Notes under the pieces: generated by a model
Told to the model about the DNA's origin: nothing
What the model saw: only the letters and a program-made list of their open reading frames with translations
Database searches by the model: none
In this document: piece by piece, positions 8,740-16,914 of the stretch
Layout: each line of letters starts with the position of its first letter
Numbering within the stretch: position 1 is the stretch's first letter
Program-made: the position numbers and the translations under genes
Source: Candidatus Methanoperedens sp.
GTDB taxonomy: Archaea > Halobacteriota > Methanosarcinia > Methanosarcinales > Methanoperedenaceae
Assembly: GCA_012026835.1 (NCBI GenBank)
Contig: VEPN01000009.1
Span: 1 to 64,000 of the forward strand
DNA: 64,000 bases
Direction of reading: 5' to 3'

Positions 8740-9267
8740 CTATAATACGCTGTCAGATTTCATTATTTCCGTTCCGTAGATATTTTTCATGTATTTGAGC
8801 GACTGCTCATAGGATTCTTCATCTATTGAAGCCGTGCAGTCATCAGGAACAATGGTCTTATATCCCGAAAAATAAGCATGTGCAACGTTATTCTGCACGC
8901 AGATATCAGTGCTTACACCAACGAGAACGAGCGTATCTGCACCTGTCTTTTTAAGAGTCTCAGGAAGCTTTGTATCAACGAACCCGCTGTACCATCTCTT
9001 TTCTATAACAACGTCTGTTTTTTCAGGCTTTAACTCAGGTATTATCTCCGAACCCTGTGTGCCTTTCATTGCATGTTCCCCCCATATGCCCATCTCTTTA
9101 TCAGATGGGGTATGGGAATCACGTAAATAAATTACCGGTATCCCCAGTTTTCTTCCCTTTTTCAATAAAGCCGCAACATTTGGCACGATTTTTTGGGCAC
9201 GGGGACCTCCCAGCTTCCCTGTGACAAAATCGTTTATCATATCTACAACTACGATGGCTTTCTTCAT
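8740..9267 (-). CDS. Isochorismatase-family cysteine hydrolase (nicotinamidase-like)
   Basis: A 175-residue member of the isochorismatase/nicotinamidase superfamily. The catalytic triad is intact: Asp9 (VVDMINDF), Lys90 (IEKRWYSGF) and Cys123 (VGVSTDICV), with the usual cis-peptide context before the Cys. Members hydrolyse nicotinamide, carbamoyl groups or related amides. The substrate cannot be fixed here, but GVSTDICVQNNVAHAYFSGY is close to archaeal nicotinamidase-like enzymes, and a role in NAD salvage is plausible. It lies between clpB and rnhB on the same strand. Confidence 0.88.
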   Translation of the reverse strand: MKKAIVVVDMINDFVTGKLGGPRAQKIVPNVAALLKKGRKLGIPVIYLRDSHTPSDKEMGIWGEHAMKGTQGSEIIPELKPEKTDVVIEKRWYSGFVDTKLPETLKKTGADTLVLVGVSTDICVQNNVAHAYFSGYKTIVPDDCTASIDEESYEQSLKYMKNIYGTEIMKSDSVL

Positions 9268-13816: not shown

Positions 13817-16675
13817 TTGGAAGATGTCATAATAAAAATAAAAGGCATGATGTGCGGCCACTGTGAAAAAACAGTACAGGATGCTGCATTAGGTGTTAAA
13901 GGCGTCACTGGAGCCTCTGCGGATTTTAAAAAAAGCGAAATGAAAGTCTCGTTCGATACATCGGCCACTGACCTTGAAACCATAAGGAAGGCAATTGCGG
14001 ATTCAGGCTATGAAGTAGTCAATGATGATGAAGCCTGCCCTGTCCCGGTCAGGAAGGAAGTAACCATCATCGGCGCAAAAGAGGCACCAAAAGAAAGCGG
14101 AATGAAGAAGACAAGCCTGAAAATCACGGGGATGACATGTGCCTCATGCGCGCAGAATATTGAAAAGGCGCTTAATAAAGTCGATGGGGTGAATAAAGCG
14201 ACGGTCAATTTCTCACTTGAAAAAGCCACTGTAGAATATGATTCTTCAAAGGTTGGCCAGAAAGATTTTGAGAATGCAATAACTGGCCTTGGATACGGAG
14301 TGGCTAAGAGCGATATCACCTTAAAAATAGGGGGTATGCATTGCGCCTCATGTGCGCTCAATATCGAGACAGCACTTAAGAAAACAGCCGGGGTATCATC
14401 TGCAAACGTAAGTTTCCCGCTTGAGCAGGCAAGGATTTCCTATGACCCGGCGACAATCTCAGTACAGGACTTGATAAAAGTTATAGAAGGCGTGGGATAT
14501 ACGGCCTCGGAAAAACTGGAAAAGACTGAGGCCGACAGGGAGCAGAGGGCTAGGGAAAGTGAAATAAAGCGGCAGAGGACAAATTTCATAATCGCTCTTG
14601 TCCTTGCGATCCCTATATCTCTGGGCGATATGGGCAGGAATATTGATTGGATAGCTCCCTATTCTCCCCAAATATTGCAGAACGACATACTGCTTTTCGT
14701 CCTTGCCACCATAGTAATGCTGTTCCCCGGACGCCAGTTCTTCGAAGGTACATATAAAGGACTGAAACACGGCGTCACGGACATGAATCTCCTGATAGCC
14801 ACAGGAACCGGAGCCGCTTACATTATCAGCGTGGCAGCGACGTTCCTTGACCTTGGCGAAGCCTATAAACATACATATTATGACACAGCGGCGCTTCTTA
14901 TCATGTTCATCGTGCTCGGGCGGTATCTTGAAGCCCTCACGAAAGGGAGAACTTCAGAAGCCATCAGGAAACTCATGGGATTGCAGGCAAAGACTGCCCG
15001 CATCATTGTGGACGGTGAAGAGAAAGAAATACCTGTCGAGAGCGTCAAGGTGGATGACCTTGTGGTTGTGAGGCCGGGTGAGAAAATACCGGTTGACGGA
15101 AAAGTAACAGAAGGTCTTACGGCAGTGGATGAATCCATGATAACAGGTGAGAGCATACCTGTTGAAAAGACAGCGGGGTCACAGGTCATCGGGGCTACAA
15201 TGAACAAGACAGGCATGATAAAATTCACAGCGACAAAAGTCGGCTCCGATACGGCGCTTGCCCAGATAATCAAACTTGTGGAAGATGCCCAGACCCAGAA
15301 AGCGCCCATACAGAAACTTGCGGATGTCGTGGCAGGCCATTTCATCCTTGCGGTGCATGTGCTTGCGCTGCTTACGTTCTTCTTCTGGTTCTTTATAGGT
15401 TTTGATTATTTCAATGTACCCGCAACTTTCGGGATGGGAATGTCATCCCCGTTCCTGTTCTCACTTCTTATCTCCATCACGGTATTGATTATCTCATGCC
15501 CGTGCGCTGTCGGGCTTGCAACCCCCACAGCGATCATGGTGGGAACAGGCAAAGGCGCTGAGAACGGCATCCTTATAAAGGGCGGCGAGGCCCTTGAGAG
15601 GGCACAGAAGCTTGATACCATAGTATTTGATAAGACAGGCACGCTGACAAAAGGCGAACCCTCGCTTACAGACGTTATAGCGATCAGAGCTCCAGAGAGC
15701 CAAGTGCTCAAGCTTGATACCATAGTGTTTGATAAGGCAGGCACGCTGACAAAAGGCGACCCACCAACAGAAGTTATAGCAATCAAAGATCCAGAGAGTG
15801 AGGTGCTCAAGCTTGCGGCAATTGCTGAGAAAGGGTCTGAGCATCCTCTTGGTGAAGCCATACTAAAAGGGGCGAAAGACAGGGGTATCCAGGTACCGGA
15901 CGCAGAGGCGTTCAAGGCAATACCCGGCCGCGGTATTGAGGTAAAATATGACGGGAAGAGAGTTCTTATAGGCACGCGGAAGCTGATGGCCGAGAACGGG
16001 ATGGATATCACACCCCTTAATAGCAGGATGGAAGAGCTCGAACACCAGGGCAAGACTGCCATGTTCGTTTCCTCGGATAATGCGATTGTGGGTATCATTG
16101 CTGTTGCAGATACGCTAAAAGAGCATTCCAGGGACGCAATAAGCCAGCTTCATAACATGGGATTTACGGTCGCCATGATAACAGGAGATAACAGGAGGAC
16201 TGCGGATGCGATTGCAAAACAGGTCGGTATCGACAGGGTGTTATCCGAAGTGCTTCCAGAGGATAAGGCAGCAGAGATCAAAAAGCTCCAGGCAGAGGGC
16301 AGGAAAGTAGCGATGGTCGGCGATGGTATAAACGATGCCCCGGCCCTTATGCAATCGGATGTTGGCATTGCCATAGGGAGCGGAACCGATGTAGCCATCG
16401 AGTCGGCCCAGATAGTACTGATAAAGAACGATGTGCGGGACGTGGCTTCAGCCATCCAGTTGAGCAAACTTACACTGAGAAAGATAAAGCAGAACCTTTT
16501 CTGGGCATTCTTCTATAATACTGTGGGAATACCCATCGCAGCAGGAATCCTGTATCCTTTCACAAACCCGCCCTTCCTGCTTAACCCCGCACTTGCGGCG
16601 GCAGCAATGGCGACAAGCTCTGTTTCAGTGACCATGAACACGCTTTTGATGAAGCGGGTAAAGCTTAAGAGGTGA
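13817..16675 (+). CDS. copA: Copper-translocating P1B-type ATPase with duplicated phosphorylation motif
   Basis: A 952-residue Cu+ exporter. It has three N-terminal HMA metal-binding domains with Cys pairs at 13/16, 108/111 and 176/179, then TM helices, TGES actuator motif, the CPC membrane motif (561-563), HP in GSEHPLGEA, and [10 protein letters not shown] near the C-terminus, all of Cu+-ATPase type. The oddity is an in-frame tandem duplication. [10 protein letters not shown] with Asp605 is followed 34 residues later by [10 protein letters not shown] with Asp639, in which the motif Thr is Ala. The start is TTG with GGAG 8 bases upstream. Family length without the insertion would be ~918. 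The small membrane gene downstream overlaps or abuts the stop. Confidence 0.95.
15608..15808 (+). repeat. In-frame tandem duplication inside copA
   Basis: Unit 1 is 15608-15709 (102 bp, 34 codons) and unit 2 is 15710-15808 (33 codons), each starting aagcttgataccatagt. The first ~50 bases of the two units differ at only two or three positions, while the later parts have diverged and one codon is lost. The duplicated block contains the P-type ATPase phosphorylation motif. The divergence implies the duplication is not an assembly artefact of identical reads. Confidence 0.9.
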
Positions 16676-16899: not shown

Positions 16900-16914
16900 C
16901 TTAAGCTTATCAGC

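Follow-up and report, generated by a model that had tools for sequence, protein, structure and literature searches.

A diverged tandem copy of the phosphorylation segment in a predicted CopA-type copper ATPase of Candidatus Methanoperedens

How can a copper ATPase carry its phosphorylation segment twice in one reading frame, and what has become of the second copy? This question is raised by a gene of the methane-oxidising archaeon Candidatus Methanoperedens sp. (assembly GCA_012026835.1), located in the first 64,000 nucleotides of contig VEPN01000009.1, which were analysed as a whole and are referred to here as the window.

The pump gene and its internal repeat

The gene was identified from its open reading frame, Pfam and TIGR models and sequence motifs:

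13817–16675, + strand: CopA-type (P1B-1) Cu(+) exporting ATPase, 952 amino acids, with three N-terminal heavy-metal-associated domains.

Pfam assigned three HMA domains, E1-E2_ATPase and Hydrolase, and the scores for TIGR01511 (633 bits, cut-off 397) and TIGR01525 (675 bits, cut-off 346) were both above the cut-offs. All catalytic motifs were found (TGES at residue 443, DKTGT at 605, SEHP at 674, GDGxND at 835), together with the transport motifs CPC (561), YN (900) and MATSS (931, of the MxxSS type), which we take from the helix numbering of the family to lie in TM6, TM7 and TM8, respectively. Judged by its sequence, the reading frame encodes a P1B-1 Cu(+)-transporting ATPase (CopA), with the Cu(+) activity being predicted. 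The nearest named protein matches were from Candidatus Methanoperedens and uncultured archaeal assemblies; Rfam matches near the gene were not obtained. In domain order, catalytic motifs and P/N fold the pump resembles the CopA proteins of Archaeoglobus fulgidus (2B8E/3A1C/3J09) and Legionella pneumophila (3RFU); unlike these, it contains about 33 extra residues with a second, altered DKTGT segment. That each polypeptide has a single DKTGT segment is an observed regularity and no formal criterion of the P1B-1 family, and the pump departs from it by the extra DKAGT at residue 639.

The two units were delimited by comparison of the repeats and, for copy 1, of the sister orthologue:

15608–15709, + strand: copy 1, 34 codons, with Asp605; the first 26 residues are those of the sister orthologue.
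15710–15808, + strand: copy 2, 33 codons, with Asp639; Thr changed to Ala, one codon deleted.

Copy 1 (102 nt, ending in VL) is followed head to tail and in frame by the diverged copy 2 (99 nt). The sequence-only reading had described an in-frame tandem repeat with the phosphorylation motif, and this was borne out; its block of 34 residues holds for copy 1, but not for copy 2, where SL is replaced by P and 33 residues are left. Its residue numbers were correct: DKTGT is kept from D605 in copy 1, and D639 is followed by KAGT in copy 2, whereas KLDTIVFDK and GTLTKG are unaltered there. The catalytic Thr was invariant in all 50 aligned sequences, and apart from this its importance is general knowledge; open-access papers on SERCA Thr353 mutants were not found in the literature searches. 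Among tandem 90-nt matches within the gene, the best reached 70% identity without gaps; in 20 codon-shuffled versions the value did not exceed 49%, and a chance repeat was thus ruled out. In ungapped comparison the copies share 94% identity in their 53-nt 5' blocks and 86% in their 49-nt 3' blocks, in agreement with the earlier statement that the copies had diverged and are no artefact of identical copies. The duplication would appear to be a fixed feature of the genome, as had also been proposed.

Placement of the extra residues

With MAFFT, the relatives aligned to the start of copy 1 and to the end of copy 2, with a gap of 33 residues in between. An AlphaFold prediction, evaluated together with the alignment, suggested the following division:

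15572–15682, + strand: predicted P-domain strand 1 with the catalytic loop, then N-domain strand 1 (amino acids 586–622), from copy 1; pLDDT 83–96.
15683–15790, + strand: predicted surplus loop linking strand 1 of the N-domain to helix 1 (approximately amino acids 623–658), comprising the end of copy 1 and most of copy 2 including D639; low pLDDT, gap in relatives.

The model was confident for the P/N fold (pLDDT 87, pTM 0.78), but is not an independent test, since its input alignment already matched the relatives to the first half of copy 1; a single-sequence run without alignment gave a pLDDT of 38. The end of copy 2 was modelled as the start of N-domain helix 1, and values below 50 were obtained for amino acids 628–639 and 644–656 of the insert. 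The best PDB matches of the predicted fold were P/N domains of CopB and CopA and whole Cu pumps. Most simply, the model would place the extra residues outside the P-domain, in the loop connecting strand 1 and helix 1 of the N-domain.

The same loop carries insertions in other copper ATPases. In Arabidopsis HMA6 (PAA1), the N-domain structure (5LBD) has extra residues at the equivalent position, namely an insertion in L1, the loop joining strand 1 to helix 1, which was disordered in the crystal; unlike the Methanoperedens insert, it does not seem to be presented as a duplicate of the phosphorylation segment in that report (PMC5089723). Haloarchaeal plasmid-borne CopA proteins of Haladaptatus salinisoli (WP_227356051.1) and Halocatena salina (WP_247995021.1) likewise possess a long insertion after strand 1 of the N-domain, ahead of helix 1. 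The haloarchaeal insert (loci L118 and L119) differs from that of Methanoperedens in being polar, of unrelated sequence and without duplication. In two bacterial CopA-like pumps (L085 and L113) the linker from DKTGTLT to SEHP measured 47 and 44 residues, respectively, the usual length being 28–29, and this lengthening apparently occurred at the same loop. Compared to these, the Methanoperedens pump is a CopA-type Cu(+) ATPase with an unusual insertion, made of a duplicated DKTGT segment, at a loop where other Cu ATPases have insertions.

The sequence-only reading had expected that the insertion should disturb the fold of the P-domain or make a decoy, and had proposed an AlphaFold model of that domain. 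This expectation found no support: the model, although biased by its alignment, showed a confident P/N fold with the insert outside the P-domain core, in a loop that carries insertions elsewhere, and strong purifying selection acts on the remainder of the gene (see below).

Origin, age and distribution

A short sequence recurs at the ends of the units:

15608–15614, + strand: AAGCTTG, left end of the duplicated unit (7-bp microhomology).
15710–15716, + strand: AAGCTTG, junction of copy 1 and copy 2.
15809–15815, + strand: AAGCTTG, right end of the duplicated unit, just after copy 2.

A sister species has one unit, with AAGCTTG at both its ends, 102 bp apart, matching the unit boundaries in the window. 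Its gene bears the labels L038 and L009, which denote one assembly region. The locus is 90.5% identical in DNA to the window and collinear with it between positions 8825 and 16903 of the window; in blastn, the alignment of the pair was interrupted only at, and exactly at, the duplication. Collinearity stops at position 16903 of the window (7987 of L038), past the pump gene and a small downstream reading frame; the L038 contig runs on beyond 7987, but without a match to the window. Since AAGCTTG is present at both ends of the sister's single unit, a duplication by recombination or slippage at short repeats is likely. Two AAGCTTG repeats would have flanked a single ancestral unit, and recombination or replication slippage between them could have produced the in-frame tandem duplication; this is the simplest origin and probably the correct one. 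Loss of one unit in the sister species was rejected, because the other members of the genus that were compared hold one unit.

At synonymous sites, the copies differ in 6 of about 24 (95% interval 0.10–0.47), and the pump gene differs from that of the sister in 188 of 616; the divergence of the copies is similar to that of the sister species. A very recent duplication is therefore improbable, and its age may come close to that of the species split, with the caveat of so short a repeat. For the gene outside the repeat, dN/dS against the sister was 0.078, which indicates strong purifying selection, with 24 amino acid changes on the branch of the source species and 18 on that of the sister. Considering both the divergence of the copies and this selection, the pump has very probably kept working.

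Constraint appears to be divided between the units. Residues 1–26 of copy 1 show no nonsynonymous difference from the sister; the equivalent part of copy 2 has four amino acid changes (including that of the catalytic Thr to Ala) and the codon deletion. The last eight residues have drifted in copy 1 and are close to those of relatives in copy 2. Taken together, 7 of 34 positions changed in the inner halves and 1 of 34 in the outer halves (Fisher p = 0.027), a test based on eight changes only and on halves defined after the data had been seen.

The comparison with homologues in related genomes, which had been suggested, showed a single unit in all 28 genus reading frames compared (a few of them more distant copies). 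A second DKTGT-like motif was absent from all 117 other P-type ATPase reading frames scanned, which came from fetched loci that overlap in part and are not all independent. A DNA pattern of two motifs at about the spacing of the repeat matched no other genome among 393 of the phylum; the single-motif pattern was detected in 30 of 41 sampled phylum genomes, often in several copies. A search for the duplication among plasmid-borne P-type ATPases gave long matches, and the two of these that were inspected had other insertions at the same loop and no duplication. Further P-type ATPases of the source genome are encoded on contigs C46, C12, C81, C31, C75 and C35, with protein identities to the pump of about 53–62% at best; those on the first four contigs, in which the motif was checked, have one DKTGT each. 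A paper describing a duplicated DKTGT segment was not found in searches of mainly open literature. Within the sets searched, these sequence comparisons suggest that the duplication is most likely lineage-specific.

Fate of the second copy

Overall, we consider it probable that this is a lineage-specific, tolerated tandem duplication in an otherwise ordinary CopA, in which Asp605 works and the DKAGT copy is a surplus N-domain loop. From the first 26 residues of copy 1, strand 1 of the P-domain, the loop with the phosphorylated Asp605 and strand 1 of the N-domain would still be built, and helix 1 of the N-domain would still begin with the end of copy 2. The approximately 33 residues between them, including DKAGT, would be a redundant insertion in the loop from strand 1 to helix 1, which has drifted. 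Normal cycling of the pump should proceed through Asp605, and phosphorylation of Asp639 would not be expected.

An assembly artefact, in which two strains or paralogues were fused into a chimera at AAGCTTG when a metagenome-type assembly was built, is unlikely. Such a join could fit the 116 contigs of the genome (3.32 Mb), the short repeat at the junction, and a divergence between the copies that is roughly that of strains or species. However, copy 2 carries DKAGT, with a Thr that is otherwise invariant, and a deleted codon, and is thus unlike a piece of an intact orthologue. Moreover, the genome is without a close second copy of the gene, the full-length or near full-length paralogues being only about 37–62% identical in protein, and seven bases are a small overlap for a join made by k-mer assembly.

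It also seems very unlikely that the loop of copy 2 is a selected regulatory element, i.e., a decoy or autoinhibitory pseudo-phosphorylation loop acting on the P or N domain and tuning the pump. Both copies have persisted despite about 0.3 synonymous changes per site, the two blocks around the altered Thr are intact in copy 2, and the nonsynonymous changes of the inner part (7) are below a rough neutral expectation (11); this difference is not significant (P = 0.13), though. Most of the insert was predicted with very low confidence, as for a flexible loop, copy 2 has lost the catalytic Thr and a codon and has further substitutions where the matching stretch of copy 1 is unchanged, and such an element is absent from every other lineage examined. 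An internal regulatory pseudosubstrate docking on the pump's own P or N domain appears extremely improbable.

A broken pump in a decaying gene, or displacement of copy 1 by the DKAGT copy in the P-domain, is hardly to be expected either: the best stretch of the Pfam Hydrolase model does run from copy 2 onward, because this copy leads without a break into the remainder of the domain, but the reading frame is intact with all other motifs, the low dN/dS is accompanied by no marked excess of changes on the branch of the source species, and the catalytic stretch of copy 1 is unchanged.

Thus, the decayed second copy is most likely a harmless extra loop in the ATP-binding (N) domain. If the assembly is right, this would be a natural insertion experiment: the segment copied is the best-conserved catalytic one that P-type ATPases have, and the duplication was apparently tolerated because its breakpoints allow the surplus residues to move out of the P-domain and form a loop of the N-domain. 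Counts of DKTGT motifs can therefore mislead, and the locus would provide a modest example of how constraint can switch from one half of a duplicate to the other; a new mechanism would be at hand only if the insert should prove functional.
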